From Brachycybe producta (Eukaryota > Arthropoda > Diplopoda > Playtdesmida > Andrognathidae): a DNA stretch of 64,000 nt. Shown piece by piece: positions 2,236-62,348 of this stretch. The position numbers and the translations under genes were made by a program. The notes under the pieces are model-generated. The model was not told the DNA's origin. It was given only the letters and a program-made list of their open reading frames with translations, and did not search any database. Position 1 is the first letter of the stretch; each line of letters opens with the position of its first letter. Where the stretch lies: contig JAUPFP010000023.1 of the NCBI GenBank assembly GCA_036925085.1, positions 3,372,278 to 3,436,277 of the forward strand, written 5' to 3'.

Positions 2236-2258
2236 GGGCGCCACTCGCACCCAAAGTA

Positions 2259-18254: not shown

Positions 18255-21536
<3,282 letters not shown>

Positions 21537-21810
21537 TTAAACCCTTAGAGACCAGGAGAGTCTTAAGTCTCTAAACTAAGTTAACTAACTACACGCCGGC
21601 TTAACCATACGTTTAACCACCTTTTTTTAACTTTAAACTTCTTTAACTTATGTATATAGTTAATTTTATGTAACATGGAGTGACGTAACCATAATAAACA
21701 AAACAAAAATAACCGGTATTCAGGAGAAATTTCCCGCGCTTTTCATGACATCACAAAACACTTCCCGCTAAATATCGATAATATCGATTTGTGTGTGCAT
21801 GGTTTTTGTA

Positions 21811-22040
21811 ACAAGCATTAGCCCATTAGAATTTTTTATAGCGCATGCGCATTGCCGCCCATCGTTTTATATAGGAAAGTGATGACAAGTAAAAACTACC
21901 CCTAAGTGAATGTCTCTTCGGCAGGTTTCATTGGTGATCAATAGATGGCGCTGCTATCGCAAATCTGCAATACTGTTCCATATAAAACGATGGACGGCAA
22001 TGCGCATGCGCTATTAAAAATTCTAATGGGCTAATGCTAG
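21811..22040. mobile_element. Foldback MITE with AGCATTAGCCC ends
   Basis: Arms of about 65 bases: AGCATTAGCCCATTAGAATT, then GCGCATGCGCATTGCCG, then CATCGTTTTATAT, all mirrored at 21978-22037. Flanks both contain GTTTTTGTAA as a direct repeat (21802-21811 and 22043-22052), probably the remains of a target duplication. Confidence 0.75.
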
Positions 22041-22364
22041 TGTTTTTGTAAACATGTGCTGCTATCTTGTGTTCAATTTTGTAATCAAAATTGACAATTT
22101 TCAATTAGAAATTTACAAGAGGGCGGACATTGGCGGATGAATCTCGTACGATATGACATGCTGTTTTTATCCGTGTTTTCCCGGATTTTCAGATTTTAAT
22201 TCTATTCTGGGAATCCAGTAAAACGCGGATAAAAATAAATAAAATGGCTTTCCATACGTACTATCTGTTTGAATCTTTCTAAATGTTAGTGAATCTCGTA
22301 CATGATTTTCTTTAATGTCGGCTCCCTCGGAAATTTACATACGAGTGTATACGTGCCTAATCGT

Positions 22365-22570
22365 AAGACGTTTGTGACGTCATACGGGTTAACATAAAAT
22401 TTAGCATTTGTGTCATTTAGTCAGATGGATAAGGAATTATAAAAAATAATCTCAACAGTTTAAACAAAATAGTTCTTGTATTTTTCTTTTCTTATTATTA
22501 CTGCTTGTTTATTAGACAAGATGGCACAATCCTAAATTTCGTGTCAACCCGTATGACGTCACAAACGTCT
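22365..22570. mobile_element. Foldback element with AAGACGTTTGTGACGTCATACGGGTT arms
   Basis: AAGACGTTTGTGACGTCATA and CGGGTTAACA at the left mirror TGTCAACCCG and TATGACGTCACAAACGTCTT at the right. The arms carry perfect CRE palindromes TGACGTCA, so the insertion adds two CREB-type sites to the CDK2/X promoter. Confidence 0.7.
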
Positions 22571-22767
22571 TGAACTTCTTATGATGAGGCCGGTATACCT
22601 AAATTTCTAATGACATTTCACAGTCGTTGTGAAAATACACGTGTTCGTCAGTGATTTTTTTTTTGTCATTGTTTTTAATTTCAGTTATTATTGTATAAAA
22701 AATATGTCAGTAGTAGTAAATAGTGCTTCTATCGAGTGTCGTTGATTGGAAACAAAGAATTAATAAA

Positions 22768-25700: not shown

Positions 25701-28700
25701 CAAGCCGACCACTCTTATGAAGTTCGTTTTGACCACTAAAAGTCGCCCAAGTATTATTTTGTTGGTTTCATTTCTTACTGTTTGGAGTATCGCAGTCCGT
25801 GATCTCCGTACGACGAATAGTTGTCGATAAACGGCATTTCTAACATTTCCGGTTTGTATTTCTTTAAGAAATAAATCCAACACGACAGTACATCTCCGGA
25901 ATCGTCCGTAAGAATTACGTCTCGTTGAATACGTTCGTATAAGTCGGGATGACATTCCAATTCGTCCATCACTTTCAACATTTCGTCGTCGATTTCATAG
26001 ATTTCTCCAACTATGTTCTATAAAAACCAAATTAATTTAAAATTAGTTTCATTTATTTCAAGTCGATTTTTTTGGTTTTGAATTTTAATATAACTCACTT
26101 TTCCTATGCCTTCGTTATACATTAAAAAGGGTACGTTGAATTTGGATGCGATGACTAGTGGCCACTTATCAACGGTTTTGGCACTTCCTACGAAACGAGC
26201 GTAACCGTTCCCTTTCTCGGTTAGCAAATTATGGTTCGGTTCTTCATTTTTCAGTGTTCCGTAAACGAAAAGTCTATGTACGACCATCTGGAAGAGAAAG
26301 AAACAAAAATTAAATTAGACAAATAAACATAAAAGAACGAAAATTAATGAAAACAAATTTAAAAAATGTTTTAGAAAACTAGAAAGGTAGCACGAATTGC
26401 TTAATGGTATATTTTCATGTTGATATAGTTTAAAATAAGCTTTTTTAAAAAGTTTCTTCTGAAAAAATATCAGCATGAAAATGTTGTAAAAGTGATAGAG
26501 TATCACAGACTACCGTTCTAGTTTTTAACACACTTTCAATTTCTACTTACTGTTGCTCCATTATAAAACATAAAAGAAGAAAAGAGAAATATTCAGGTTT
26601 ATTTCTTTTAAATACGTTTTTTTTACTCTGTATATTTAAATAAATAAATTAAAAAGAATATAATTTGAATTTTGTTTAAATTGATAAATTTTAAAATAAA
26701 CTATTCGGTTAATTACAATTCATGCAATCATTAAAAAAATGTTAAAGAAAATTATTTCAAGTTATTATGATCATTGTTGTAAAATAAGTAAATTTTACAA
26801 CAATTCTTCATATGTATATTTTTTACCTCAATTTAAAAAAAATTTAAAATTTATATTAAAGAAAAATTTAAAAGCAATTTTAAAATTTTAAAAACTTATA
26901 AATAATATAATTAAATAATAATATAAAAAAATTTTAAGTCTAAACTTACTTTTGGTTGTTATTGTAGTTTTATTATTTGTTGTTTGTTGTTGATACTCAA
27001 GTAAGCTCTCAAATGAATTGAATGAAGATTTAAAGAAATTTATCTCGATATATATACAATAATTTCAGGATATACAAATTAATTTCTCAACTTTGAAGGA
27101 AAGATGAAGAATAACATTTTTTCCTTGCTATACAAATCAAAAAAAAAATGAGTCAAAACAAAATTACTTTTGTGTTGTGATATATTTGTGCGTATGTTAG
27201 TATAATTTTAGCAGGATAATCATTTTTATTATCTTCCTCAATGGGAACATTGGGGAAGTACACGGATTACATTCAAAGTGAGTTAAAAAGTGGGCAAGTT
27301 TTCCCGCGCTTTTTATGACGTCACGAGGCACTTTCCCGCCAAATATCGATTTTTTTTAAATATAGTTTGAAAAACATGACTTGCCATCTTTTGATTAAAT
27401 ATGTCATTATAAATTAAGAATTTTTTAATGACATAATTACGGGTGTGCGATAATTGTCATTTCACCATTTCACAGAGCTCTCTGTTGTAAAGCTGTTTGT
27501 TTGTCTGTGATTTTTTTTTGTCATTCTTTTTAATTTACTGTATAAAAGTATGACGGTCGTAGTAAATAGCGCATCGATAGAATTTCATTGATTGAAAAGT
27601 TGGAAACTAAAGAATTAATATTGTATGAAATGCATAAAAGTTCGGGTGTAATTCTTTCGAAGAGCGCCTACATTAAGGTATCCCGCTTCAAATAAAAGTT
27701 TTTAATTTTAATAGCTTAGTGGGAACGTATGTCTCCACCTCTAACGCTATTACTTAGGGGTATTTTGATCGTTATTTAATTTATATTTCAAAATAAACAT
27801 TTTATAGACAAAAAATTAAAAAAATATCGTCTGCTTGAATTCGGATTATTTTCAAACTCACCTACATGAAAATGATTGAGCTACCCTTTGTGACACCCTG
27901 TATCTACAGACTTGTGGAGCACCCCGTAGAAATTCTTTTCTGTCAGCATGGCACCCCTTGCTACACAGATGTCCAGACTTGGGTGGCCCGAATTCTTAGT
28001 GAATTCGAGGAACCAAGTAGAACCGTGAGAAATTGGGGAAAGAGTCCCAAAATACCTTTCTTTATAAGGTAATAATCTCAGCCCAGGGCAATGATTGGCC
28101 CAGTTGGTCAATCATTGGGCCCTGAGGTGACAGTTTCTCCTTCCAGGAGACCGAATGAGAGGACCGTGCCACTTATGTGTGAGGACAGTTTGAGACAGAG
28201 TTTAGAGAGTAAGTTTAAACTAGAGTTCGAGTTTACAGTTCGAGTTTAGAGTTCAAGTTTGTAACCAAAGAGATATTTTCTAAAATATATATAGAAATAC
28301 GCACAACAATGTAACCGTGAAATATGTAAACGAACAGTAAAGAGTTTTATCTACCTCAAGAATTGTGGGTGCAAGTGTTTTGTGAGTTTAATTCTCTCTA
28401 CAGCGAATAACAAATTGAGGAGCTTTTGCCAGCAATTATCACCACCGGTAGAGGCACTTGGAAACTTTCCAAGTCCTTGTGTTCGGTGCCTTCAACAAGG
28501 CCAAAGTAGGACAGAGGAGGTTGGGCGTGGTTATGCACTGTACAAAAGATTCCTAAGGAGTAGTCTTTTTGTGGGCTATTCAAGTATACAACTGATCGCG
28601 AGAGGACTGTATTGTTTGGTACTAGCGACCGGGTTAGTATGAGATGTTGCTACCTTAAAATCAGGGGCTGGTCTGCAGCCCGCACCACCCCAAGCGGGCG

Positions 28701-31700: not shown

Positions 31701-34700
31701 AGACCTAGCGACTTTTAGTGTTCAAGATGAACTGCAAAAAGTGGTCGTGTAAAATCGACTAGAGTGGTCGGTTTTTAACCACAAGCCGACCACTCTTAAA
31801 GTTCGTTTTGACCACTAAAAGTCGCCCAAGTATTATTTTGTTGGTTTAATTTCTTACTGTTTGGAGTATCGCAGTCCGTGATCTCCGTACGACGAATAGT
31901 TGTCGATAAACGGCATTTCTAACATTTCCGGTTTGTATTTCTTTAAGAAATAAATCCAACATGACAGTACATCTCCGGAATCGTCCGTAAGAATTACGTC
32001 TCGTTGAATACGTTCGTATAAGTCGGGATGACATTCCAATTCGTCCATCACTTTCAACATTTCGTCGTCGATTTCATAGATTTCTCCAACTATGTTCTAT
32101 AAAAACCAAATTAATTTAAAATTAGTTTAATTTATTTCAAGTCGATTTTTTTGGTTTTGAATTTTAATATAACTCACTTTTCCTATGCCTTCGTTATACA
32201 TTAAAAAGGGTACGTTGAATTTGGATGCGATGACTAGTGGCCACTTATCAACGGTTTTGGCACTTCCTACGAAACGAGCGTAACCGTTCCCTTTCTCGGT
32301 TAGCAAATTATGGTTCGGTTCTTCATTTTTCAGTGTTCCGTAAACGAAAAGTCTATGTACGACCATCTATAGAAGAGAAAGAAACAAAAATTAAATTAGA
32401 CAAATAAACATAAAAGAACGAAAATTAATGAAATAAAATTTAAAAAATGTTTTAGAAATCTAGAAAGGTAGCATGAAATGCTTAATGGTATATTTTCATG
32501 TTGATATATTTTAAAATAAGCTTTTTTAAAAAGTTTCTTTTGAAAAAATATCAACATGAAAATGTTGTAAAAGTGATACACAGAGTATTAGAGACTACCG
32601 TTCTAGTTTTTAACACACTTTCAATTTCTACTTAATGTTGCTCCATTATAAAACATAAATGAAGAAAAGAGAATTATTCAGGTTTATTTCTTTTAAATAC
32701 GATTTTTTTACTCAAATTATATTATTTTTTATTTATTTATTTAAATATACATATTTAAATAAATAAATAAAACATAATATAATTTGAATTTTGTTTAAAT
32801 TAATAAATTTTAAAATAAACTATTCGGTTAATTACAATTCATGCAATCATTAAAAAATGTTAAGCAAAACTATTTTAAGTTATTGATCGTTGTTGTAAAA
32901 TAAGTAAATTTTACAACAATTTTTCATATATATATATATTTTTACCTCAATTAAAGAAAAATTTAAAAGCGATTTTAAAATTTTAAAAACTTATAAAAAA
33001 ATAAAATATAATATATGTATTAATATATAATGTAAAATAAAATATAAATATTATGAAATCTTTTTAAGTCAGAACTTACTTTTGGTTGTTATTGTAGTTT
33101 TGTTATTTGTTGTTTGTTGTTGATACTCAAGTGAGCTCTCAAATGAATTGAATGAAGATTTAAAGAAATTTATCTCGATATATATACAATAATTTCAGGA
33201 TATACAAATTAATTTCTCAACTTTGAAGGAAAGATGAAGAATAAAATTTTTCCTTGCTATACAAATCAAAAAAATGAGTCAAAACAAAATTACTTTTGTG
33301 TTGTGATATATTTGTACGTATGTTAGTATAATTTTAGCCGGATAATCATTTTTATTATCTTCCTCAATGGGAGCATTGGGGAAGTACACGGATTACATTC
33401 AAAGTGAGGTAAAGTGGGCAAGTTTTCCCGCGCTTTTTTTGACGTCACGAGGCATTTTCCTCCAAATATCGATTTTTTTTTTAATATAGTTTGAAAAACA
33501 TGACTTGCCATCTTTTGATTAAATATGTCATTATAAATTTAGAATTTTTTAATGACATAATTACGGGTGTGCGATAATTGTCATTTCACCATTTCACAGA
33601 GCTCTCTGTTGTAAAGCTGTTTGTTTGATTGTGATTTTTTTGTCATTCTTTTTAATTTCAGTTAATTACTGTATAAAAGTATGACGGCCGTAGTAAATAA
33701 CGCATCGATCGAATTTCATTGATTAGAAAGTTGGAAACTAAAGAATTAAAATGGTATGAAATGCATAAAAGTTCGGGTGTAATTCTTTCGAAGAGCGCCT
33801 ACATTTAGGTATCCCGCTTCAAATAAGAGTTTTTTTTTATTTTAATAGCTTAGTATTAAAATGTATGCCTCCTCTGCCTCTGACGCTATTACTTAGTGGT
33901 ATTTTCATCTTTATATTATTATACGAGTGGGGTAACCCGTCATATATGACGGGAGCAATATTCACAGGCAATTGTGCCCAGCATGAGAATTTTTTTTCCT
34001 CCGCCCTTTTATGACGTCAGACCCAAATAACAAACCAATTATAAATTGATGACGTTCATAAAAGGGCTGAGCAAAAGAAATTCTAATGCTGGGCACAATT
34101 GCCTGTGATAAACTGTAGTTTAATTTTGCTACTATTATCCCCTCCCCTTTTTATATTTGAAAGAGAAAATGAGTTTTTCATTTTCTCTGGTGTGCGCATG
34201 CGCGTCGTTTGTTCCTTTTTTACTTATTTCATTTCAATTTCAGTCACCCTCTCCCACTTTTTCCCCCTCCACGTTTCTCTCTCCCCCCTCTACACTTTCC
34301 AACCTTTTCCCCTCTCCAATTTAATATCATGGGGTTCTTGGATGGGGAGTGTGCAACATATAGTTGACCTTGAGAAAAAAGTGGTTCATTCATTTAAATT
34401 TATATAAATTCCGATGTTACACACACACACACAGACCTGGCTTAATATATATAATAATATTTCAAAATAAACATTTTATAGACAAAAAAATTAAAAAAAA
34501 TATCTTCTGCTTGAATTCGGATCATTTTCAAACTCACATACATGAAAATGATTGAGCTACCTTTCTAGTTTCTAAAACACATTCAACTTTCTCTTCATGT
34601 TTCACCTTAAAGACAGAATAATCAGAGTTCGAGTCATATGTTGACATTAATTGTAATTTAAGAATTTTTCAAAGTTGCCAAATAAAAAAAGGACTTCTAA

Positions 34701-37700
34701 TCTAATCGAATTCTTGTAAATCCAAGTTTGTGTGGTTTTTTGTTGTTGTTATTGATATAAAAATTGTGATAAAATTTTGTTTGAATCTGAAAATCACTTT
34801 CAACTAAAATTAAGTGAAACTTAAAATTCTCTCTGAAAATATTTTAGATTAGAAAGTCACTTATACCTAGTACACACCTGATAATTTAAATGAATTTAAG
34901 TAATAAATGTGTTCTACAGAGCCCTGTGAAGGGCAAACAAACAATATGTTGAATTCAATTTATTTCGTTAATAATCTCAAAATATTGAGTTAATACTTAA
35001 TATATAAATACTAGTGGGGTAACCCGTCATAAATGACGGGAGCAAAATTCACAGGCAATTGTGCCCAGTATTAGAATTTCTTTTCCTCCGCCCTTCTATG
35101 ACGTCAGACCAAGTATCAAACCAATTAGAAATTGATGACGTTCATAAAAGGGCGGAGCAAAAGAAATTCTAATGCTGGGCACAATTGTCTGTGATAAACT
35201 GTAGTTTAATTTTGCTACTATTATCTCCTCCCCTTTTTATATTTGAAAGAAAAAATAAGTTTTTCATTTTCTCTGGTGTGCGCATGCGCGTCGTTTGTTC
35301 CTTTTTTATTCCTTTCATTTCAATTTCAGTCACCCTCTCCCACTTTTCCCCCTCCACGTTTCTCTCTCTCCCTCTCTACACTTTCCAACCTTTTCCCCTC
35401 TACAATTTATTATCATGGGATTCTTGGATGGGGAGTGTGCAACATATAGTTGACCTTGAGAAAAATAGCGGTTCATTTATTCATTTAAATTTATATAAAT
35501 TCCGACGTGCTTCAAGGTTTGTACAGTGTTAATCACATACACACATACCTGGCTTAATATATATATAAAATATAACTATTGACAAAATATTGATTTAGTA
35601 TTTCAATTTAAAATATTAATAATAAAGTCGATTTTTATTTGGTTCATGTCCTTAACTGGATTCCGTATAATTCACCTAAGCACATTTAATTTGAATTAAT
35701 TTAACTATGTGTGTACAAGGTATTAGCCTCAAAGTTAAGGTGTGACCATTAGGTTTTTATTAGAATTAATTACAAATGATGCCACTAGATGGAGATATGG
35801 GAATTCACGTGAACACGAACTTAGATCTCTGTGTATGCGGCTAAGTTCAAGGAGCGTATTTACTGCTACCAGTATGGAGGTTTTTAAAAGCATTTATTGA
35901 ACAAAACTATAGTGATGTGCCATTGAAATATTTCACATGACATGAGTTTGAAATATTTCAAAAAAATGTGAAAATTATTTCAAAAAACTGTTTCCAAGTA
36001 CTGAAACCATAAACGTAAAAAATGGTGATTGTAATTGGTTCATAGGAACATGTTTAATTATACCATTTGTGTCGTTTTTGTGTCAATTTTTGTTCAAAGT
36101 TTTTGAAATCTTGTTTCCTTTTCTTCAATCATTTTTGAATAAATGGAAATTTTTAATGTTCCATTTTGTAAAATTATTATAAGTGTAACTTCATTCAAAC
36201 ACTTTGTCTAATTATTCTACAATCATTAGTCACATTATGTGAGAAATAATTATATATACTATTAGTATATAAAGTTAATGAAAACTTATGCAATTTTATA
36301 TCTTGTTTTTATTTTATGGATTTTAATTTTACAACTTTTCATAAATTTCATGAACTATTTCAACAAAATAAGTTTCATGAAATTGCCCTTCACTTATAAA
36401 ATATTGTAATACGATTTACAGAATGCGAAGAAATGAAGCGAATGTATTAAAAATTATTAATCAGTATTGGAATATTTTTTATAAAAATTTTAAACTTCAC
36501 TTCTGTTTCAAAAAACGTTGTTAATGCCAGCATGCAACATATGCTCACAAGTTGTCACTATAGTGACACTAATGGCATTTACAACGTGACCATAGTCACT
36601 AAGTGACTGGCCGTGCTGCCACTCGAATTGCTGCTATTGGCTGTTACAACGTTATGATTTGCACAACAATGTTACTTCAGTTTTTTACCACTAGAAACAA
36701 CACTTTTGTGACAAGCAAAATTCCCTGCAGAAAGCATGGCGTTTACAACCCATTATCGATTTTAAAAAAAACGTATTTTACCCTTATATGGCGTTTACAA
36801 CGTTATGGAAATGCACGCCTTAATTATTAAAGATTAGGAACCATCAAGTTTAATTGTCTAAATATAAATCACAACAACATTTTTTTGTTTCAAAAATATG
36901 AATTTGCCTTTTATTAATTAAATAATTAAATTATGAATACATTATTGCAATAAAATAATAAATAATAAATAATCACAGATATTTTTTTATATTTGGAAAG
37001 TTTTCAAATAAAAAAAACTCCAATGTTAGCTTCAGTGGAATTCCAAACACAATTAAAACTCGTGCGAATCTTTGTCTCGAATAAAATTAAATATTTTCGC
37101 AATTGCCGAGATCATCACTGAAATTGACAAAGAAAAAGTTAATTAGTTCAAAAAATAACTTTTGAGAGAGTTCACAGACCTAGCGACTTTTAGTGTTCAA
37201 GATGAACTGCAAAAAGTGGTCGTGTAAAATCGACTAGAGTGGTCGGTTTTTAGCCACAAGCCGACCACTCTTATGAAGTTCGTTTTGACCACTAAAAGTC
37301 GCCCAAGTATTATTTTGTTGGTTTCATTTCTTACTGTTTGGAGTATCGCAGTCCGTGATCTCCGTACGACGAATAGTTGTCGATAAACGGCATTTCTAAC
37401 ATTTCCGGTTTGTATTTCTTTAAGAAATAAATCCAACACGACAGTACATCTCCGGAATTGTCCGTAAGTATTACGTCTCGTTGAATACGTTCGTATAAGT
37501 CGGGATGACATTCCAATTCGTCCATCACTTTCAACATTTCGTCGTCGATTTCATAGATTTCTCCAACTATGTTCTATAAAAACCAAATTAATTTAAAATT
37601 AGTTTAATTTATTTCAAGTCGATTTTTTTTTTCATTTTTAGTTTTGACTTTTAATATAACTCACTTTTCCTATGCCTTCGTTATACATTAAAAAGGGTAC

Positions 37701-40700
37701 GTTGAATTTGGATGCGATGACTAGTGGCCACTTATCAACGGTTTTGGCACTTCCTACGAAACGAGCGTAACCGTTCCCTTTCTCGGTTAGCAAATTATGG
37801 TTCGGTTCTTCATTTTTCAGTGTTCCGTAAACGAAAAGTCTATGTACGACCATCTATAGAAGAGAAAGAAACAAAAATTAAATTAGACATATAAACATAA
37901 AAGAACGAAATTTAATGAAAACAAATTTAAAAAATGTTTTAGAAAACTAGAAAGGTAGCACGAATTGCTTAATGATATATTTCCATGTTGATATATTTTA
38001 AAATAAGCTTTTTTAAAAAGTTTCTTTTGAAAAAATATCAACATGAAAATGTTGTAAAAGTGATACACAGAGTATTACAGACTACCGTTCTAGTTTTTAA
38101 CACACTTTCAATTTCTACTTAATGTTGCTCCATTATAAAACATAAATGAAGAAAAGAGAATTATTCAGGTTTATTTCTTTTAAATACGATTTTTTTACTC
38201 AAATTATATTATTTTTTATTTATTTATTTAAATATACATATTTAAATAAATAAATAAAACATAATATAATTTGAATTTTGTTTAAATTAATAAATTTTAA
38301 AATAAACTATTCGGTTAATTACAATTCATGCAATCATTAAAAAATGTTAAGCAAAACTATTTTAAGTTATTGATCGTTGTTGTAAAATAAGTAAATTTTA
38401 CAACAATTTTTCATATATATATATATTTTTACCTCAATTAAAGAAAAATTTAAAAGCGATTTTAAAATTTTAAAAACTTATAAAAAAATAAAATATAATA
38501 TATGTATTAATATATAATGTAAAATAAAATATAAATATTATGAAATCTTTTTAAGTCAGAACTTACTTTTGGTTGTTATTGTAGTTTTGTTATTTGTTGT
38601 TTGTTGTTGATACTCAAGTGAGCTCTCAAATGAATTGAATGAAGATTTAAAGAAATTTATCTCGATATATATACAATAATTTCAGGATATACAAATTAAT
38701 TTCTCAACTTTGAAGGAAAGATGAAGAATAAAATTTTTCCTTGCTATACAAATCAAAAAAAAAAATGAGTCAAAACAAAATTACTCTTGTGTTGTGATAT
38801 ATTTGTGCGTATGTTAGTATAATTTTAGCCGGATAATCATTTTTATTATCTTCCTCAATGGGAACATTGGGGAAGTACACGGATTACATTCAAAGTGAGG
38901 TAAAGTGGGCAAGTTTTCCCGCGCTTTTTATGACGTCACGAGGCACTTTCCCGCCAAATATCGATTTTTTTTTAAATATAGTTTGAAAAACATGACTTGC
39001 CATCTTTTGATTAAGTCATTATAAATTAAGAATTTTTTAATGACATAATTACGGGTGTGCGATAATTGTCATTTCACAGCTCTTGTTGTAAAGCTGTTTG
39101 TTTGTCTGTGATTTTTTTTTTGTCATTCTTTTTAATTTCAGTTAATTTCTGTATAAAAGTATGACGGTCGTAGTAAATAGCGCATCGATCGAATTTCATT
39201 GATTGAAAAGTTGGAAACTAAAGAATTAATATTGTATGAAATGCATAAAAGTTCGGGTGTAATTCTTTCGAAGAGCGCCTACATTAAGGTATCCCGCTTC
39301 AAATAAAAGTTTTTAATTTTAATAGCTTAGTGGGAACGTATGTCTCCACCTCTGACGCTATTACTTAGGGGCATTTTCATCTTTATATGATTTTATATTT
39401 CAAAATAAACATTTTATAGACAAAAAATTAAAAAAATATCGTCTGCTTGAATTCGGATTATTTTCAAACTCACATACATTAAAATGATTGAGCTACCCTG
39501 TATCTACAGACTTGTGTAGCACCCATAGAAATTCCTTTTTTTCAGCATGGCACCCCTTGGTGCACAGATGTCCAAACTTGGGTGGCCTGAATTCTTAGTG
39601 AATTCGAGAAACCAAGTAAAACTGGGAGAAATTGGGAAAAGAGTCCAAAAATACCTTACCTTATAAGGTAATAATCTCAGCCCAGGGCAATGATTGGCCC
39701 AGTTGGTCAATCATTGGGCCCTGAGGTAACAGTCACTCCTTCCTGGAGACCAAATGAGAGGAACGTGCCACTTATGTGTGAGGACAGTTCGAGACAGAGA
39801 GTTCAGAGAGTATGTTTAAACTAGAGTTCAAGTTTAGAGTTCGAGTTTGTAACCAAAGAGATATTTTCTAAAATATATATAGATATACGCACAACAATGT
39901 AACCGTGAAATATGTAAACGAACAGTAAAGAGTTTTATCTACCTCAAGAATTGTGGGTGCGAGTGTTTTGTGAGTTTAATTCCCTCTACAGCGAATAACA
40001 AATCGAGGAGCTTTGGCCAGCAATTATTACCACCAGCAGAGGCACTTGGAAACTTTCCAAGTCCCTCTGTTCAGTGCCTTCAACAAGGCCAAAGGAGGAC
40101 AGAGGACGTTGGAGTGGTTATGCACTGTACAAAAGATTACTAAGGAGTAAAGTCTTTTTGTGGGCTATTCAAGTATACAACTGATCGCAAGAGGACTGTA
40201 TTGTTCGGTACTAGCGACCAGGTTAGTACGAGATGTCGCGACCATAAAATCAGGGGCTGGTCTGCAGCCCGCACCACCCTAAGCGGGCGGTGCTAGAAGG
40301 CCAGCTGCGTCACACTTTCTAGTTTCTAAAACACGTTCAACTTTCTCTTCATGTTTCACCTTAAAGACAGAATAATCAAGAGTTCGAGTCATATGTTGAC
40401 ATTAATTGTAATTAATAATTTTTCAATGTTGCCTAATCTAATCGAATTCTTGTAAATCCAGGTTTGTGTGGTTTTTTTTGTTGTTGTTATTGATATAAAA
40501 ATTGTGATAAAATTCTGTTTGAATCTGAAAACCACTTTCAACTAAAATTAAGTGAAACTTAAAATTTTCTCTGAAAATATTTTAGATTAGAAAGTCACTT
40601 ATACCTAATACACACCTGATAATTTAAATGCATTGAAATAATAAATGTGTTCTACAGAGCCACTGTGAAGGACAAACAAACAATATGTCGAATTCAATTT

Positions 40701-43700
40701 ATTTAGTTAATCTCAAAATATTGAGTTAATACTTAAATATAACATATAAACTATTGACAAATATTGATTTAGTATTTCAATTTAAAATATTAATAATATG
40801 ACACCCCCTGCACATGTGTCGGGTGCACACATGTGTGATGGATGTCGCTAACAAGGTCTTCTGAAGTTTGACCACCCCTTTCTTTGGTCAGAAAGGTTTC
40901 CCATAAAGACAGTGTCCAAAATACGAAAAGATATTTCTTTTCGTCGGCACATATGGATGCAATTAAGAAGAGGAAATCACTTTTCCTCATGTCCAGTGAC
41001 ACTGGACTGGCCCAAATGACTTCTACGAAATCATTTGAATATTTCACAGAAATGAATTCCAAAAAAAGAAATATTTTGGGACCAGAGATCGCCATTGGTC
41101 AGCAAAACCTATGGGCGGCTGCTGGTCACGAGTGGCCCCTCCCAAGGGCCAGAGTAATAAAACAAGCATGCGAGGTACCCTCAGGAGGACAGTAGGCAAA
41201 AAGTTGCGGGAGCAGAATGTTTCCCTCCTCGTTGGAGAGTAGAATATTCTAAGTATAAAAACCTAACCTAACCTTTTCTACAAGTTTCAGTTGCTTATGT
41301 GGTAACCATTCGTTTATTTTCATTTGTATTATGTATCAACAAACGTAAAATAAATCCAGTTTGTATCATAATCAGAAAAGCCATTTTTCTTATTTGTGAA
41401 GTCGTCACTTTTTCTTTAAAACGTGGGAACTTTGAGTCTTGTACACACGGAACGCAACACAGATCGACATGCCATGGAGTCCTACTCCTACCAGAGGCGG
41501 AGGACGACCAAGGGCCACGCATCCAGGTCATCAAGTCGACCTGGATCACCCGGCAGGTCACAGAGCCCGAGCTCGGAGTGTGGAGCGTCACACAACCCGG
41601 ACCCGATTGGCTGGCACAGGGCGAGCCATCCAACAAAGAGAGAGACCAAGCTGGACTGAGTCCAGCATCGTTACAGAAGGACAAAAAGACAAGCAACCGC
41701 CTATACAACAGGGTCCAAGCACGTTACAATAATAAAGTATATTTTTATTTGGGTTTATGTCCTTAACTGGATTCCATATAATTCACCTAAGCACATTTAA
41801 TTTGAATTAATTTAACTATGTGTGTACAAGATATTAGCCTCAAAGTTAAGGTGTGACCATTAGGTTTTTATTAGAATTAGTTACAAATGATGCCACTAGA
41901 TGGAGATATGGGAATTCACGTGAACACGAACTTAGATCTCTGTGTACGCGGCTAAGTTCAAGGAGCGAATTTACTTGGTACCAGTATGTAGGTTTTTAAA
42001 AGCATTTATTAAACAAAATTCTATGAGATGAGTTTGAAATATTTTAAAAAAATGTGAAAATTATTTCAAAAAACTGTATCCAAGTACTGAAACCATAAAC
42101 GTAAAAAAATGGTGATTGGTTCATAGGAACATGTTTAATTTTACCATTTGTGTCGTTTTTGTGTCAATTTTTGTTCAAAGTTTTTGAAATCTTGTTTCCT
42201 TTTCTTCAATCATTTTTGAATCATCATCATTTCCTGTACCTTATCCCGCAAGCAGCAGGGTCGGCCTTGCTGGTTCTAACTCTCCACTTGTTCCGATCTT
42301 GCACCAAGCTCCCAGTGACCCCACATGCCTCCATATCCCGTTTTACTACCACATCTCAGGTTTGCTTGGGTCTTCCTCTACCCCGTTTTATTCCCAGGTC
42401 TAAGTTCATTGCCTGTCTCAGCAGCCCATCTTCTCCACTCCTGAGGACATGCCCAAACCACCGTAGCCTATTTTCCTGCATCTTTTCGACTATATTTGTC
42501 ACCCCTACACTACCCCTAATAAAATCATTTCTAATCCTATCCCTTCTGGTCACCCCACTCATAAACCTTAGCATCCTCATCTCAGCTACCTGCATTCTAT
42601 CCTCATGCACCTTCTTGATTGCCCAACATTCTGACCCATACAACATAGCTGGTCTGACAACTGTTCTATAAAACTTTCCCTTCAACTTTATAGGTAACTT
42701 CCTGTCACATAAAACCCCACTAGTCTGCCTCCACCTATGCCAACCTGCTTTTATCCGGTTTGTGATGTCTAAGTCTAAGCTCCCATCATCTTGCAGCACA
42801 GATCCTAAATATTTGAAGTCATGCACCTGCTGCATTAAACTGTCCCCAAGTCTAATCCCCTCATTCAACTGTTCTTTCCCATCCCACTGAAATTTCATGT
42901 ACTCTGTTTTTGCCCTGCTTATTTTCAACCTCTTTGATTCCAAGGCATTCCTAGTCTCCTCTAACCTTATCTCGAGTTCCAATTTGGATTCCCCAACTAA
43001 GACTATGTCATCTGCAAACAGCATACACCAGGGGACCTCCTGCCTCACCCCTGCCAGTAACTCATCCAGGACCAAAATAAATAGATATGGACTAAGTGCT
43101 GAGCCCTGGTGCACCCCAATCCTAACACGAAAACTGTCAGAGAACCCCCAGGCAGTCTTAACGCTTGTCCGTGCATCCCTATACATGTCCCTCACCATAT
43201 CTATATAACTCTCACTCACCCCCTTCTTCTGTAAGACCTCCACAATAACGTCCGTGGTACTCTGTCATAGGCTTTCTCTAGATCTATAAATACCATGTGT
43301 AACTCTTTCTTGGCAGCTCGAAACTTCTCAATAACTTGCCTTACGGCAAAAATAGGGTGCATTGTGGATTTTCCTGGCATAAACCCAAACTGACTTCCCC
43401 CAATTGCAGTTTTACCCCGTAGTCGCGCTTCAATTACTTTCTCCCAAAGCTTCATCGTATGACTCATCAATTTAATACCTCTATAGTTCCCACATTCCTG
43501 AACATCACCCTTCCCTTTGAAAATAGGCACTAACCAGCTGTCCCGCCATGCATCTGGCATTCTATCCCCCATAGCCAATCTATTGAATAACTTTGTGAGC
43601 CAGGAAATGGCAACATTCCCCAAGACCTTCCACACCTCTACTGGTATCCCATCTGGCCCTAAAGCCTTCCCTAGCTTCATTTTTCGCAATGCCTGAACAA

Positions 43701-46700
43701 TTTCCTCAGCCCTAACCTGCTCCACTTCTTCTCTATCATTATTTCTTCCAGTGAAAGGCTCCTGCTCTACCCCCTCATTCATAAGCTTACTAAAATATTC
43801 CCCCACCTGTTCCGTACTGGCTCCCTACCCCACAATACTTTGCCCCCATTATCCTTAACACTCACCACCACATCTCTGCCTTTATTCTCCCGAGCCCTAG
43901 CTATTCTATATACTGCCATTTCTCCTGCTCTGGTACCTAACTTGGCATACATGTCCGCATATTTCTTATGCTTTGCTAAGGCTACCTGCTGCTTGGCCTC
44001 TATCTTGGCACGCTTGTATTCTATCTGGGCCTCCCTGCTTCCATCGTGCCACCAAGTCTTGAAAGCATCTTTCTTCTTTTTAACTGCCATCTGTACCTCC
44101 TCATCCCACCACCAAGTTTCTCTGTCTAATCGAGACCCCCTACTCGTACTGTCCCTAGTACCTCGTTTCCACAATCACGGATCTGTTGTGCTACCCTTGT
44201 CCACAGCTCTCCTGCAGTGCCATCTAAATCCCATGCTATCTTACCTGCCATTTTCTTAAACTCTTCCACCTTGTCTGGTAATGCCCACCACCTAATTGCT
44301 GTCTCTCCTCTATGTCTGACCACCTGTTTTGCACCCCTAGGTTTTAGGTCTAACACTACTAGCCTATGTTGTCCCGCTAAGTTTTCACTCGGTATCACCT
44401 TACAATCCTTGCACTCGTTTCTATCCTCACTCCGAATCATGAAGAGATCAATCTGGGATTCTCCTGCCCTGCTCTTAAAAGTAATCAAATGTTCCTCTCG
44501 CTTCTGGAATAGTGTGTTTGCTAAAATTAACTTATGTGCCACTGCTGCCTCCAGGATACTCTCCCCTGCTTTATTTCGCTCTCCATAGCCCCACCCACCA
44601 TGTACCTCTTCATACCCTTCCCTACCTCTACCTACATGTCCGTTAAAGTCCCCACCAGTTATGACCCGTTCCTTCCTACTCAGGCCCAACATTAGGTCAT
44701 CAAACTGTTCCCAGAATGCTAGCTTCCTGGCTGTATCTAATCCAACCTGGGGGCCATATGCACTAACTACATTTATAACAATGCCACCCCAAACTACCTT
44801 TACTACTAACAGCCTACTATTTACCCGCCTAACCTCAACCACACTATGTCTGAGTTCCTGATCCGGGACAATTCCCACTCCATTTCTACCCTCCTCACTA
44901 CTTGCATAAATTAATTTATACCCATCCCCAATGTCCCTGGATTTATCCCCTTTCCATCTTGTCTCCTGCAGACATGCAACATTTACCCTCCTAGCCTTTA
45001 GAACACTAGATAACTCCCTAGTCTTCCCTGTCAAACTCCCTATATTCCAGGTGCCAAACCTAAGTTTAGTACCTCCACTTCTACCACTACTTCCAAGACC
45101 TCCTTGTTGTTGATTAAATGGAAATTTTTAATGTTCCATTTTGTAAAATTATTATAAGTGTAACTTTATTCAAACAATTTGTCTAATTATTCTACAATCA
45201 TTAGTCACATTATGTGAGAAATAATTATTATATATATATTTTGCCAGGTCTGTGTCTCTTTCTACATGTATATATATATCTTTCTCTCTTTCTGGGATAA
45301 CGCTGTACAACCATTGAAGCACATCGGAATTTATATAAATTTGAATAAATGAACTGTTTTTTTTTTCTTTCTCAAGGTCAACTATATGTTGCACCCTTCC
45401 CATCCAAGAACCCCATGATATTAAATTGGAGAGGGGAAAAGGTTGAAGTGTAGAGAGAGGGGGGAGAGAGAAAGTGGGGGGGGGGAGAGAGAAAAGTGGG
45501 AGGGGGTGACGAAAATTGAAATGAAAGCAGTAAATAAAAGGAAAAAACGACGCGCATACGCACAATTGCCTGTTAATTTTGCTCCCATCATTTATGACGG
45601 GTTACCCCACTAGTATATACTATTAGTATATAAAGTTAATGAAAACTTATGCAATTTTATATCTTGTTTTATTTTACGGATTTCAATTTTACAACTTTTC
45701 ATAAATTTCATGAACTATTTCAACAAAATAAGTTTCATGAAATTGCCCTTCACTTATAAAATATTGTAATACGATTTACAGAATGCAAAGAAATGAAGCG
45801 AATGTATTCAAAATTATTAATCAGTATTGGAATATTTTTTATAAAAATTTTAAACTTCACTTCAGTTTCAAAAAACGTTGTTAATGTCAGCATGCAACAT
45901 ATGCTCACAAGTTGTCACTATAGTGACACTAATGGCATTTACAACGTGACCATAGTCACTAAGTGACTGGCCGTGTTGCCACTCGAATTGCTGCTATTGG
46001 CTGTTACAACGTTATGACTTGCACAACAATTTTACTTCAGTTTTTTACGACTAGAAACAACACTTTTGTGACAAGCAAAATTCCCTGCAGAAAGCATGGC
46101 GTTTACAACCCATTATCGATTTTTTAAAAAAACGTATTTTACCCTTATATGGCATTTACAACGTTATGGAAATGCACGCCTTAATTATTAAAGATTAGGA
46201 ACCATCAAGTTTGATTGTCTCTAAAATATAAATCACAACAACATTTTTTGTTTCAAAAATATGAATTTGCCTTTTATTAATTAAATAATTAAATTATGAA
46301 TACATTATTGCAATAAAATAATAAATAATAAATAATCACAGATATTTTTTTATATTTGGAAAGTTTTCAAATAAAAAAAACTCCAATGTTAGCTTCAGTG
46401 GAATTCCAAACACAATTAAAACTCGTGCGAATCTTTGTCTCGAATAAAATTAAATATTTTCGCAATTGCCGAGATCATCACTGAAATTGACAAAGAAAAA
46501 GTTAATTAGTTCAAAAAATAACTTTTGAGAGAGTTCACAGACCTAGCGACTTTTAGTGTTCAAGATGAACTGCAAAAAGTGGACGTGTAAAATCGACTAG
46601 AGTGGCCGGTTTTTAGCCACAAGCCGACCATTCTTATGAAGTTCGATTTGACCACTAAAAGTCGCCCAAGTATTATTTTGTTGGTTTCATTTCTTACTGT

Positions 46701-47747
46701 TTGGAGTATCGCAGTCCGTGATCTCCGTACGACGAATAGTTGTCGATAAACGGCATTTCTAACATTTCGGGTTTGTATTTCTTTAAGAAATAAATCCAAC
46801 ACGACAATACATCTCCGGAATCGTCCGTAAGAATTACGTCTCGTTGAATACGTTCGTATAAGTCGGGATGACATTCCAATTCGTCCATCACTTTCAACAT
46901 TTCGTCGTCGATTTCATAGATTTCTCCAACTATGTTCTATAAAAACCAAATTAATTTAAAATTAGTTTAATTTATTTCAAGTCGATTTTTTTTTTCATTT
47001 TTGGTTTTGACTTTTAATATAACTCACTTTTCCTATGCCTTCGTTATACATTAAAAAGGGTACGTTGAATTTGGATGCGATGACTAGTGGCCACTTATCA
47101 ACGGTTTTGGCACTTCCTACGAAACGAGCGTAACCGTTCCCTTTCTCGGTTAGCAAATTATGGTTCGGTTCTTCATTTTTCAGTGTTCCGTAAACGAAAA
47201 GTCTATGTACGACCATCTGGAAGAGAAAGAAACAAAAATTAAATTAGACAAATAAACATAAAAGAACGAAAATTAATGAAAACAAATTTAAAAAATGTTT
47301 TAGAAAACTAGAAAGGTAGCACGAATTGCTTAATGGTATATTTTCATGTTGATATATTTTAAAATAAGCTTTTTTAAAAAGTTTCTTCTGAAAAAATATC
47401 AACATGAAAATGTTGTAAAAGTGATACACAGAGTATTACAGACTACCGTTCTAGTTTTTAACACTTTCAATTTCTACTTAATGTTGCTCCATTATAAAAC
47501 ATAAAAGAAGAAAAGAGAAATATTCAGGTTTATTTCTTTTAAATACGATTTTTTACTGTGTATATTTATTTAAATAAATAAAAAATAATATAATTTGAAT
47601 TTTGTTTAAATTGATAAATTTTAAAATAAACTATTCGGTTAATTACAATTCATGCAATCATTAAAAAATGTTAAGCAAAATTATTTCAAGTTATTGATCA
47701 TTGTTGTAAAATAAATAAATTTTACAACAATTTTTCACATATATATC

Positions 47748-47809
<62 letters not shown>

Positions 47810-50800
47810 CAATTAAAGAAAATTTTAAAAGCGATTTTAAAATTTTAAAAACTTATAAAAAAATAAAATATAATATATGTATTAATATATAATGTAAAAT
47901 AAAATATAAATATTATGAAATCTTTTTAAGTCAGAACTTACTTTTGGTTGTTATTGTAGTTTTGTTATTTGTTGTTTGTTGTTGATACTCAAGTGAGCTC
48001 TCAAATGAATTAAATGAAGATTTAAAGAAATTTATCTCGATATATATACAATAATTTCAGGATATACAAATTAATTTCTCAACTTTGAAAGAAAGAAGAA
48101 GAATAAAATTTTTCCTTGCTATACAAATAAAAAAAAAATGAGTCAAAACAAAATTACTCTGTGTTGTGATATATTTGTGCGTATGTTAGTATAAGTTTTT
48201 ATAATTTTCTTCCTCAATGGGAGCATTGGGGAAGTACACGGATTACATTCAAAGTGAGTTAAAAAGTGGGCAAGTTTTCCCGCGCTTTTTATAACGTCAC
48301 AATGCACTTTCGTGAAATATTTCACATGAGATGAGTTTAAAATATTTTAAAAAAAATATGAAATTTATTTTTAATAATCTGTTTCCAAGTAGTGAAACCA
48401 TAAACGAAAAAAATGGTGATTCTAATTGGTTCATAGGAACATGTTTAATTTTACCATTTGTGTCGTTTTTGTGTCAATTTTTGTTCAAAGTTTTTGAAAT
48501 CTTGTTTCCTTTTCTTCAATCATTTTTGAATAAATGGAAATTTTGAATGTTCCATTTTGTAAAATTATTATAAGTGTAATTTTATTCAAACACTATTCTA
48601 CAATCATTAGTCACATTATATGAGAAATAATCATATATACTATTAGTATATAAAGTTAATGTAAATTTATGCAATTATATCTTGTTTAATTTAATGGATT
48701 TCAATTAATTTTACAAGTTTTCAATATATTTCACAACTTTTCATAAATGTCATGAAATATTTCAACAAAATAAATTTCATGAAATTTTGCCCATCACTCA
48801 TTGTCTTTTCGAAACTTGTTGAATATATGATTCCAAGGAACCGTTTTTTTGTGACGATCTGTTTGTAAATATTTATTCAATAAGAGTTTTATATTGGGGA
48901 TCTTTGCTATTTAGTTTTTTTTGTTTTAGGGGTACGTGATCAAAAGTTTGGAGACAACTGGTGTACTAGTTAGAAAAGGATGGTACCCATGTGACCAGTA
49001 CGGACTACTTGATTGTTGACTAGTGGGGTAACCCGTCATAATTGATAGGAGCAAAATTCACAGGCAATTGTGCCCAGCATTAGAATTTTTTTTCCTCCGC
49101 CCTTTTATGACATCAGACCAAGTAACAAACCCAATTAGAAATTGATGACGTTCATAAAGGGGCTGAGCAAAAGAAATTCTAATGCTGGGCACAGTTGCCT
49201 GTGATAAACTAGTTTAATTTTGCTATTATCCCCTTCCCTTTTTATATTTGAAAGAGAAAATGAGTTTTTCATTTTCTCTGGTGTGCGCATGCGCGTCGTT
49301 TGTTCCTTTTTTACTCCTTTCATTTCAATTTCAGTCACCCCCTCCCACTTTTTCTCCCTCCACGTTTCTCTCCCCCTCTACACTTTCCAACCTTTTCCCC
49401 TCTCCAATTTAATATCATTGGGTTCTTGGATGGGGAGTGTGCAACATATGACCTTGAGAGAAAAAAAGCGGTTCATTTATTCCTTTAAATTTATATAAAT
49501 TCCGACGTGCTTCAAGGTTTTTGTCCTTGTTTGTACAGCGTTAATCACACACACACAGAGACCTGGCTTAATATATATATATATAAAAGGTTAACTTATT
49601 AATCAGCAGTGTGTGTTTTACTGTATCAAAACCTTTTGCAAAGTTCAAAAAAATATTAAGTCAACTTCAGATTGATTATCTAGTTTTGAATGAATGTCTG
49701 GTAATATACAGTGCCGACTGAGTGTCACATGATCGTCCTTTTCTATAGCCGTGCTAATTTTCATTGATTAGATTAGTTAATTAAATGCTTCATTGTGTAA
49801 GAATAGATAATATGTTCACAGAGATTTACAAACGGTAGGTGTTAAAAAATATGGTTTAATAATTAATTGGCAAATTTTTGTCACCAAGATTTATAAACTG
49901 GACAAATATTTGGGGGCTTCCAGGCTTGTGGCAGTATTCCACTAGTTTTGGGACAATTCTTTCAACACAGAATAACAAGTAAATTTGAAAATGAGTTATT
50001 TACAAAACAAATATACTTTATTTTAAGAAATATTCAAAGAATGGTCCGTCAAGTTTTTTTAAAGTAAAAATAAAAATCACAACAACGTTTTTCACTTTTA
50101 AAAATATGAATTGTTTTTTATTAATTAAATTACGAATACATTATTGCAATAAAATAATAAATAATCACAGGTATATTTTTTATATATTTGGAAAGTTTTC
50201 AAATTAAATAACTCGAATTTTAGCTTCAATGGAATTCCAAACACAATTACAACCCGTGTGAATCATTGTCTCGAATTAAATTAAATATCCTTGTAATTGT
50301 CGAGATCTTCACTGAAATTAACAAAGAGCAAAGATAGAAAAAAATAGATTAGTTCGAAAGGTTAACTTTTAATTTTTGTACTATTTTGTTGGTTTAATAA
50401 TATCTTACTGTTTGACATATCGCAGTCCATGATCTCCATACGAAGAATAGTTGTCTATATAAGGTAATTCTAACATTTCCGGTTTGTATTTCTTCAAGAA
50501 ATAAATCCAACACGATAATACATCTCCGGAATTGTCCGTAAGAATTACGTTTCGTTGTACGCGTTCGTAAAAGTCGGGATGACATTCCAATTCGTCCATT
50601 ACTTTCAACATGTCATCGTCGATTTCATAGATTTCTCCAACTATGTTCTACAAAAAGAAATTTAATTTAAAATTAGTTTAATTTATTTATTTCAAGTCGA
50701 TTTTTCTTTTCATTTTTGGTTTTGACTTTTAATATAACTCACTTTTCCTATGCCTTCGTTATACATTAAAAAGGGTACGTTGAATTTGGAAGCGATGACT

Positions 50801-53713
50801 AGTGGCCACGTCTCAATGGTTTTGGCACTTCCTACGAAACGAGCGTAACCGTTCCCTTTCTCGGTTAGCAAAGTATGGTTCGGTTCTCCATTTTTCAGTG
50901 TTCCGTAAACGAAAAGTCTATGCACGACCATCTATAGAAGAAAAAGAGATAGAAATATAATATTAGGCAACTAAATGCAAAAAAAAAAAATACAATACAC
51001 CTCTTATAAGCAATTGTTACAAACTAAAAATAAAGTTTTATAAAAATTAGATTTATTTAAGTTTGGTTTTAAAGTGTGAACAAGTCTCAAACTCTGATTA
51101 TTCTACTCTTCAGGGGAGTAAAAAATTAAGAGAAACTTGAATGTGTTTCGGAAACTATAAAAAAATTATTCAAATCAGCTGTTTCTAAACAAAAATCTCA
51201 ACGAAATTAAAAATAATATAAATATAAATTTTGTTTAAATTATCAATTTTAAAATAAACTATTCAGTTAATTATTTTAATATTATATTTTTAAAGCAAAA
51301 CTGTGAATCGAACATTGGGGTATTAAAATAAGTAAATCTTAGAAGATGAAATTTTTTTTTTCATATTTTTTTTAAATCGGAATTAGAGAAAATTTCAATT
51401 TGTTTCTAATAAAAATTGGAAAAGAATTATAAAGTAAAATATTATATAAAATCTTCTTTCGTAAGTCGAAACTTACTTTTGTTATTTGTTGTTGATACTC
51501 AAGTAAGCTCTCAAATGAATTGAATGAAGATTTAAAGCAATTTTATCTCGATATATAATATATATATATATATAATAGTTTCAGGATATACAAATTAATT
51601 TCTCAACTTTGAAGGAAAAATTGAAAATGAAAACTTTCCTTGCCGTAGAAATCGAAAATGAGTCAAAAATTGCTTTGTGATATACTGTATGTGTTAGTAT
51701 TATTTTATAGCAGGATAATCATTTTTATCTTCCCCATGGAAATTACATTGTATAGTATATATTATAATCAAAAGTGAGAGGTAGAAGGTGATAATTTCTC
51801 ACGCTATCTAATTCGGGGGGGGGGGGGGGGGGGGGATAGGCAACTTGTGGCTCTTCTGAGATTTTTTTTCTTCTTCTTGGTAACAAATTTATCACAAATT
51901 AAACAATGTTGTAAACGAATTTCCATAGTTTTTCTATTTGTTTTAACAACTGCCCCTGTGTTTTAACACTATACTCACAATTACTTCTTATAAGGAATTT
52001 ATTTTCTCTTAAATACCTGAGACCTGATTACATAATATAAACAAATGTGACCATTATACCTTATGATGTCATTGCTTATGATCTATCATTTTATGACTTT
52101 CATATTATTGCTTTACTACACTCAATGGCAGCTAAAAAAAATATTATACACATCTGACAATATTTGTCATATAATACTTTTGTCGTTTTATAATTTGCTT
52201 TTGTGACTGTCACAAGGTTAGACATGACAGTCATTATTTTTATGTAATGGTCTCCTGAATAGAAAGATAGACAAGCTTTATAACAACTATTTTAATTTAT
52301 GAGGCAATTTATGTTAATTGAATTTTGTAGTGAAACATAATTAAAGACATAAAACGGAACTTTTGAAAAACTTGGATATTTTCAGGAGCCAGACACAAAA
52401 TTAACATAATAAAAATGCAAATTATTGTGACTCCTAGATACTTTGAGATATTGTGGCGCCTGGTGTTTGCCTTTTTCATTTAAATCAATAAGAAAATTAA
52501 AAATAATTACGTCAGTTTTTTTTTATTTATTGTATAAAGTCATAAGTAATGAGAATTAGAAATATATTATAAAAAATATATGTACAAACTTGACTAAAAT
52601 TGTGACTTTTTGAGGTCCCAAAAAAAAATTAGGGGCCCTAGGTGGGTACGAATGTCACATTACAGTAAATTGCTAATAATCTTAAAACTGTTACAAAACA
52701 TTTATTAGACAAAAAATTTATACTGTTACAGGTGTAGCATATATTTCTGACTGTCACTGACTGGCGTATAGCATGATATATGATTGTCATATAATGATAG
52801 ATAATTTGAATCTGGAAAATTACTCTGCAGGCAGCCCAAAGGGCCTGTGACAGAAGGATTATTTAGTCCAAAAGAATTATAAGTAATATTCACATAACAA
52901 ATTATGATTATCACAATTTCGTGAAATTTTTTCTTTTTTTTGGATAATGAGGCAAGAAATCTTAAAGATAATCTTGTAGATAAAAATGATTTTGATTTGT
53001 AATTTCTCATATTTATTAAGTTGTGATCTTGAAAGAATCGATTCAATTATATTTATTATAGTTTACAATATATTAAATTTCTGTATAGGGCCTGCAAGTA
53101 TTTTATTATGTTAATTTTTGTTGTAATTCCTGAAAATTTTTAAATATTTTATAACTTTCTTTTTTCTTGTGACAAAAAAAATGGCTTTTTTTTTGCAAAA
53201 AAAGGTTGCCAACCCTTTGATTTTAATCTTATTCTGATTGGTATGTTTATTTATTTATTATTATACATTGTAGGTGGTTTGACGTAATCGTCATAGTTGT
53301 GTGTAAGTACATTTTGTAATATATGTTTAGTGATGGTACGTTTGACACATGGTTCATTAATTTTATATGTACGTCATTTTTTATGTTTGTTTCCTTATGC
53401 AGGAAACTCAGTGGATGCTACAAACACGGTTAAAAAAAATTGGACTTCCCATTGAAGGTCAGTCTTCTTAAAAGTTTTTAGCCTCCTTTCTTATATTTCA
53501 TGAATGATATCTTTAAAAAAAATTGTACTTTTTTGCTTCAATGTAGTATCTAATTGCAGGATTATTGCTCAATGCAACAAACAGTTTCAGAAAAGAGAGA
53601 GAGAGAGACTCCAGTGTTCGTGAGTTTGCTCTTGAACGGATTTACGAACAGGTGGTTGGTTTTTCACATCATCAAGGAAAAAAGTGTAAAGGAGGAATTA
53701 AGAGAGTGAAAAA

Positions 53714-59779: not shown

Positions 59780-59986
59780 ACAGGCAATTAGAAAACGGGA
59801 TGAACATATTAGTTGGCCCCGCCCTTTTTATGATGAACGGCAACTTCTAATTGGTTTGTTGTGTGGTCCGACGTTGGAAAGGTCGGAACATGTGACGTCA
59901 GACTACATAACCAACCAATTTGAAGTTGCTTTCGTCATAAAAAGGGCGGAGCCAACTTCTGTTCATCCCGTTTTCTAATTGCCTGT
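59780..59986. mobile_element. MITE of the ACAGGCA family, copy 3
   Basis: ACAGGCAATTAGAAAACGGG with GTTGGCCCCGCCCTTTTTAT, mirrored at the right end (CCCGTTTTCTAATTGCCTGT). Both flanks contain TATGTTTT, likely the target duplication. Same arms as 10766-10975 and 23102-23308. Confidence 0.75.
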
Positions 59987-60006
59987 ATGTTTTTATAAGC
60001 AATATA

Positions 60007-61785: not shown

Positions 61786-62348
61786 CACATGTGGCGGTAT
61801 TTGTCATATAATGACTGTTTCTATCATTTACATAAGTGATTATTACAAGCTGTTATGAGCTATCTTAGCTAGATATAACAATTGACTAGTCATATGACTC
61901 TCTCTCTCTCTCTCCCTCTCCTCCTTTTCTTGGTTTTAATCTGCGTTTTAAAATTTTACAACACTTTATACCTACCTTGCTACACTTAAAAACTAAAATT
62001 GCATTCAAGTTAAATGTGTTTTTAAAGTCGAATTATACGGAGTTCAGTTAAGGACATGAACAAGATAAAAAATTAACGTTATTACTGAGTATCTGAACAA
62101 AATGGAAAATTGGAAATATTAAATCGATAATCTTATATGGAAATAATAAATGAATAAATTGAATTTTGACATTTTGTTTGTTTTTGTCTTTAACATGGTT
62201 TCTGTAGAACGTGTATATTTAAATGTATTTAACTTATTAAAGGAATATTTAAAGACAAAAATGAAAGTGTTTTAGAAAGCGGAAGAATTAACTGAATCAG
62301 ATAACGTGTGACAAACTAGTAGATTGTAGATAACAGTATGTTGATAAT
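61786..62348. other. Intron-like sequence, no gene seen
   Basis: AT-rich, with a TC microsatellite at about 61894-61920 and a fragment of the 11220-type repeat (ATATGACTCTC region). Confidence 0.4.

Follow-up and report, generated by a model that had tools for sequence, protein, structure and literature searches.

A five-unit tandem array of GGACT genes in Brachycybe producta whose units open at a promoter-like block also found beside CDK2

Introduction

Why should one metabolic gene stand five times in a row, each time within a unit that opens at a sequence block also found beside the start of a cell-cycle gene? The question is raised by a 64,000-nucleotide stretch of the Brachycybe producta genome (Diplopoda; assembly GCA_036925085.1, contig JAUPFP010000023.1, positions 3,372,278 to 3,436,277 of the forward strand), hereafter called the window, in which five genes of the GGACT family follow CDK2. 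GGACT serves in clearing the products of transglutaminase cross-links (gamma-glutamylamines), and tandem gene amplification is common. On the given sequence the five-copy locus is a real array, and it probably arose by head-to-tail amplification of GGACT through unequal crossing-over, raising the dose of the gene, with gene conversion homogenising copies 1 to 4. As an amplification the array looks ordinary; its unusual feature is the shared control-like block.

Results

The sequence TTTCCCGCGC occurs five times in the window, always on the plus strand (21730, 27300, 33424, 38915 and 48276), against a chance mean of 0.05, and none of 100 shuffles held five occurrences. Each occurrence opens one of five head-to-tail units, and each unit holds one intact minus-strand GGACT gene; the block starts are spaced by 5570, 6124, 5491 and 9361 bp, and the last unit runs for about 3550 bp up to a run of G. 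The block count, the intact genes and the self-comparison of the locus bear out the five-unit array proposed in the first-pass annotation, which had placed the first block correctly at 21730 and each of the other four off by one. The collinear units seen in the self-comparison carry qualifications for units 1, 4 and 5, as the left half of unit 1 is matched only in pieces, unit 4 holds a LINE-like insertion, and little of the other spacers has a counterpart in unit 5. The blocks within the array, all on the plus strand, are block 2 (27300..27350), block 3 (33424..33473, its second E2F-like site lost), block 4 (38915..38965) and block 5 (48276..48320, its right half changed and without TATCGAT), which lie upstream of GGACT copies 1, 2, 3 and 4, respectively. 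The array is located between CDK2 on the left (minus strand, 21521 to about 18285) and a xylulokinase-like gene on the right (plus strand, exons at about 55-58.5 kb).

The five GGACT genes, all on the minus strand, are copy 1 (25775..26287; coding exons 26287-26099 and 26017-25775, ATG at 26287), copy 2 (31854..32366; 32366-32178 and 32096-31854, ATG at 32366), copy 3 (37331..37853; 37853-37665 and 37573-37331, ATG at 37853), copy 4 (46694..47216; 47216-47028 and 46936-46694, ATG at 47216) and the divergent copy 5 (50405..50931; 50931-50743 and 50647-50405, ATG at 50931). Every one of them has 143 codons, split into exons of 189 and 243 coding nt by a GT-AG intron of 81-95 nt, and its reading frame stays open until codon 144. 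The proteins of copies 1, 2 and 4 are identical, in agreement with the earlier claim of three identical products, while copy 3 differs at one residue (D to N) and copy 5 at 13 (5/63 and 8/80). The three distinct proteins score 90.8 (copy 1), 90.1 and 90.2 bits against PF06094, that is 90.1-90.8 over a cut-off of 22.8, and residues 5-141 of the 143 align with solved GGACT proteins at E values of 5e-36 to 6e-29 (copies 1 and 5 aligned). According to PMC2954230, the catalytic site of mouse A2LD1 comprises Tyr7, Gly8, Thr9, Leu10, Ile50, Glu82, Tyr88, Tyr115 and Tyr143; by a count by eye on the alignments, 8 of these 9 residues are identical in copies 1 and 5, the equivalent of Ile50 being Val in both alignments and, from the translations, in the remaining copies. 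By the PF06094 cut-off and these catalytic-site residues, the predicted products of all five genes are members of the GGACT family. A tblastn search of the window at E<=1 gave no further fragment of GGACT or CDK2 beyond the five genes and CDK2 itself.

Copies 1 to 4 differ from each other by 1.5-4.5% over 2.4-2.6 kb; the exon windows (0.45-1.3%) and a predicted untranslated region (UTR) exon (1.3%) show little divergence, their surroundings more. Among these copies, 23 two-against-two sites and indels were found, of which 16 group copy 1 with copy 4, 5 with copy 3 and 2 with copy 2. Copy 1 groups with copy 3 at 24.95-25.39 kb (plus one one-base indel shared with copy 4), with copy 2 at 26.07-26.08 and with copy 4 at 26.29-26.77, and one site shared with copy 3 and two with copy 4 follow at 27.25-27.29. 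Since the grouping thus changes along the unit, segments have been exchanged among copies 1 to 4, which are recombinational mosaics. The single replacement in copy 3 yields the residue of copy 5, which fits either exchange or shared ancestry. The array therefore presents same-orientation, collinear units of recombinant ancestry, as in a tandem array made by unequal exchange.

Copy 5 stands apart, with 30-31 of 429 coding sites different from copies 1 to 4, a synonymous divergence (dS) of 0.20-0.22 and a nonsynonymous divergence (dN) of about 0.04. In its left half (21.73-24.87 kb), unit 1 resembles the other spacers in scattered stretches of 67-89% identity only; from about 24920 on, its identity to the other units is 97%. 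Unit 5, which seems to have lost most of its spacer, passes at 48313 directly from block sequence to sequence corresponding to 30469, so that a small part of the other spacers is matched. Several insertions are private. Unit 4 alone carries a 2.9-kb element like a long interspersed nuclear element (LINE; 42222..45106, minus strand), with matches to endonuclease (PF03372) and reverse transcriptase (PF00078) in several frames, whose insertion point is uninterrupted in units 2 and 3, and also a piece resembling a miniature inverted-repeat transposable element (MITE) at about 45235-45613. A 0.8-kb insertion common to units 2 and 4 is lacking from unit 3 at the corresponding site; the insertions of units 2 and 4 that unit 3 lacks (27888-28728, 39497-40315, 29174-30160 and 40798-41728) are probably non-autonomous transposons, and no Pfam match was obtained for those of their open reading frames (ORFs) that were tried. 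Imperfect palindromic MITE-like repeats also stand at 23102-23308, 33962-34108, 35049-35194 and 49058-49204, and outside the array at 10566-10983 and 59780-59990.

These divergences, private insertions and partial spacer matches argue for one old duplication followed by a later burst, and make a simple assembly artefact unlikely. The 'very recent' amplification of the first-pass annotation accordingly fits copies 1 to 4 and fails for copy 5. The 21 consecutive G on the right edge of the array, and the locus being known as assembled sequence, would favour an artefact in which haplotypes or repeats were placed end to end; we consider it very improbable, as there are five copies and not two, as LINE, MITE-like and other insertions are unit-specific at matching places, and as copy 5 has a dS of about 0.2.

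The coding changes also bear on whether the copies were kept for their dose. With copy 1 taken as centre and a neutral replacement fraction of 0.763, the changes among copies 1 to 4 number 4 silent and 1 replacement (P=0.013), and of the 30 differences between copies 1 and 5, 16 fall in codons with a replacement (P=0.005), with dN/dS of about 0.2. This pattern suggests purifying selection on the five genes. A neutral amplification, in which dose was not selected and gene conversion maintained the similarity of young copies, would suit the exchange of segments between copies, the transposon-rich locus and the divergence of 1.5-4.5%. It is, however, a rather unlikely account in view of the silent excess among copies 1 to 4, the intact copy 5 with its low dN/dS and the low divergence of the exon windows; gene conversion lowers divergence but alone does not explain the excess of silent changes.

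The block on the CDK2 side (block 1, 21730..21779, plus strand) lies beside the first coding exon of CDK2 (21384..21521, minus strand), which was located by tblastn of the exon string; the gene continues to the left (tblastn pieces 21521-21384, 20102-19986, 19882-19697, 18825-18715, 18625-18416 and 18356-18285), and the best solved relatives of its product are CDK2. In block 1 we recognised motifs like the sites of E2F (TTTCCCGC; consensus TTTSSCGC), the cAMP response element (CRE; TGACATCA) and the DNA replication-related element (DRE; TATCGATA), together with a near-match, CTTCCCGC. The E2F-like TTTCCCGC is present in all five blocks. Blocks 2-4 hold the CRE-like TGACGTCA, of which blocks 1 and 5 have variants. 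A second TTTSSCGC is present in blocks 2 and 4, at the place where block 1 has CTTCCCGC, and TATCGATT in blocks 2-4, that is, at three GGACT copies. The DRE-like TATCGATA is confined to block 1, and none of the five GGACT copies has it. Near the gene start, TTTSSCGC is found at CDK2 and at four of the five GGACT copies, copy 5 being the exception.

Block 1 shares 44 of 51 aligned columns with block 2 (E 1.9e-9), a score of 186 where the best of 500 resamplings reached 86. It is identical to block 4 at 44/51 columns, to block 3 at 40/50 and to block 5 at 37/46; its six substitutions relative to block 2 are all transitions, and the order and spacing of the motifs are kept. On this alignment the CDK2-side block is homologous to the blocks of the array. 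That E2F, CRE and DRE sites arose independently in two promoters might be thought of, as the motifs are known promoter elements and DREF is a promoter-binding factor of replication and proliferation genes (PMC6179265). Such convergence is already disfavoured and scarcely credible, in view of the identity to four blocks, the transitions, the conserved order and spacing, and further matches to the right of the block (22050-24819), though those at 24.5-24.8 kb are repeat-like.

The homology of the CDK2 side to the array opens exactly at the block (21730) and extends rightwards only, in the pieces just mentioned; near 24.5-24.8 kb these resemble 54.4-54.7 kb too, as copies of an interspersed repeat would. 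To the left of the CDK2-side block no homology was detected, the scores being reached by 714-943 of 1000 shuffles. It had been proposed that the duplicated segment includes half of a divergent promoter between CDK2 and a gene X. The homology of the block (44/51 columns) upholds one part of this proposal; gene X did not appear among the ORFs searched, as no Pfam match was given to the right of the block at E<=0.1 by ORFs 29225-29530, 29731-30105, 41298-41723 and 29304-29672, nor at E<=0.01 by ORFs 30283-30438, 28401-28649, 29865-30197 and 28295-28639, most spacer ORFs and all those of unit 1 lying outside this search. Half of a CDK2/X promoter may have been spread by the array. A short ORF of 13 codons (M-VVVNSASIE--stop) is present in units 1-4 (22704-22745, 27550-27591, 33681-33722 and 39161-39202), with TTTCAG in front of it in units 1, 3 and 4 and with differences, by eye, largely at third codon positions; it could be what is left of a divergent gene, or a chance occurrence.

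Upstream of copy 5 lies a probable decayed remnant of the block (51795..51810, plus strand), followed by the run of 21 G (51815-51835), the longest of six runs of G or C of at least 9 in the window. When the 62 bp before the block and the first 16 bp of the block were compared jointly between copy 5 and copies 1 to 4, none of 1000 shuffles reached the score, while 2-7 of 1000 did so for the 62 bp alone; the block alone was insignificant at copy 5 (122-390/1000). For the CDK2 flank with the 16 bp of block against copy 5 the figure was 7/1000, and for the CDK2 flank alone 692/1000. We therefore call the block at copy 5 probable rather than certain, significance being limited to the joined stretch and, at a lower level, the preceding 62 bp. 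Because of this trace, the block was probably already upstream of GGACT when copy 5 split, or else a further unit once stood to the right of copy 5.

This bears on a special form of the amplification, in which a breakpoint of the first duplication lay within the CDK2 promoter and gave the new copies the E2F/DRE block and a link to the cell cycle, and copy 5 kept its original upstream region without a block. The homology starting exactly at 21730 next to unrelated left flanks, the E2F and DRE motifs, a style of replication-gene promoters that suits CDK2 better than GGACT, and the confinement of TATCGATA to the CDK2-side block all agree with such a capture. Copy 5, on the contrary, seems to retain the decayed start of the block with its preceding 62 bp, and we regard the capture as a tentative proposal, somewhat short of an even chance. 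The array need not have carried the block from CDK2 to GGACT by duplication, as the earlier claim implied, if the block was upstream of copy 5 too.

In all five copies the ATG stands directly after a pyrimidine-rich AG acceptor, and a GTAAGT donor lies further upstream (at about 660-725 bp in copies 1-4 and at 545 bp in copy 5), from which we infer a non-coding first exon of GGACT. For copy 1 the predicted 5' UTR intron is 26288..26949 (minus strand; GTAAGT donor, AG acceptor abutting the ATG; conserved across the copies, copy 5 included), and the predicted UTR exon, with initiator-like and TATA-like motifs, is at about 26950-27056 (minus strand), as judged from sequence and cross-copy conservation. 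Between copies 3 and 5, 130 of 141 aligned positions are identical over the predicted UTR exon and core promoter, versus 46-78% in windows of the predicted UTR intron (one window of only 7 aligned positions being excluded). The TATA-like motif is present in 5/5 copies, and in copies 1-4 about 230-245 bp separate it from the start of the block further upstream, a position from which the block would be a candidate driver of GGACT expression.

Elsewhere in the window, a Gypsy-type retroelement (1-9193) with long terminal repeats at 1-595 and 8599-9193 (99.8% identity) and a single long ORF, in which Pfam recognises protease and integrase, is a young insertion. A 95-bp repeat stands in four tandem copies with 94% matches at 62348-62724. 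Plus-strand exons at 13516-14595 belong to what we take to be a CDV3-like gene, the one exon tried giving nothing above the Pfam cut-off. No Rfam match was obtained in the window at the gathering score. Reverse-transcriptase pieces of the LINE and of a Gypsy element had no relative in genome_contigs, and the GGACT protein and the Gypsy piece had none in viral_contigs.

Discussion

Our preferred explanation is that the left half of unit 1 and copy 5 go back to an old duplication, and that later unequal crossing-over with gene conversion among the units would have produced the five units and homogenised copies 1 to 4. The first unequal exchange may have taken place at the paired blocks of the same orientation, on the CDK2 side and at GGACT; two direct blocks flanking GGACT would permit exactly such units, and so would a chance break with microhomology. 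As all five genes are intact and their changes suggest purifying selection, the likeliest effect would be more of the same enzyme. The array, the exchange of segments and a signal of constraint can be read from the sequence itself; the benefit of GGACT dose and the role of the block are inferred. Cell-cycle-linked expression of GGACT would be possible. The fuller proposal, that duplication put an S-phase module of CDK2 (E2F, CRE, DRE) upstream of GGACT and that the chimeric copies were then amplified, coupling GGACT to the cell cycle in this lineage, appears improbable.

Several points weigh against the explanation preferred here. The array is known from the sequence of one assembly, and the 21-G run, a possible assembly join or else a true breakpoint scar, carries a risk of assembly fault. 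The silent/replacement test for copies 1 to 4 has a small count of five changes, and gene conversion alone would likewise keep the copies alike. Copy 1 is not young throughout, given that its window 26813-26948 is 26-28% different from copies 2-4. The exact initiator-like motif is found in four of the five copies and not in copy 4, and the block could be the unit border by accident of the breakpoint.

Among the literature matches listed for the GGACT name and for AIG2-like expansion (titles and beginnings of abstracts), no report of a multi-copy GGACT locus appeared, a weak absence by which the five-copy array is apparently unreported, its mechanism being of a familiar type; a table row in PMC6837289 names one Anopheles gene with GGACT activity. 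If all copies are expressed, this would be a lineage with a raised capacity to degrade gamma-glutamylamines, and the shared block lends itself well to testing whether control elements of a neighbouring cell-cycle gene can reach a metabolic gene through tandem duplication.

As in the known GGACT/A2LD1 proteins (3jub, 1vkb, 2kl2), the YGTL motif and the equivalents of Glu82, Tyr88, Tyr115 and Tyr143 are present here, whereas Val replaces Ile50 and the genes are five in tandem. With tandem arrays of the unequal-crossing-over class with gene conversion the locus shares its head-to-tail order, mosaic copies, mixed ages and unit-specific transposons, but here the unit border is a promoter-like block shared with the neighbouring CDK2. 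In Drosophila, CG2811 and Tina-1 are two adjacent GGACT-family genes, so that more than one such gene side by side in an arthropod has a likely parallel; those are two diverged genes, in contrast to the five near-identical ones of B. producta.

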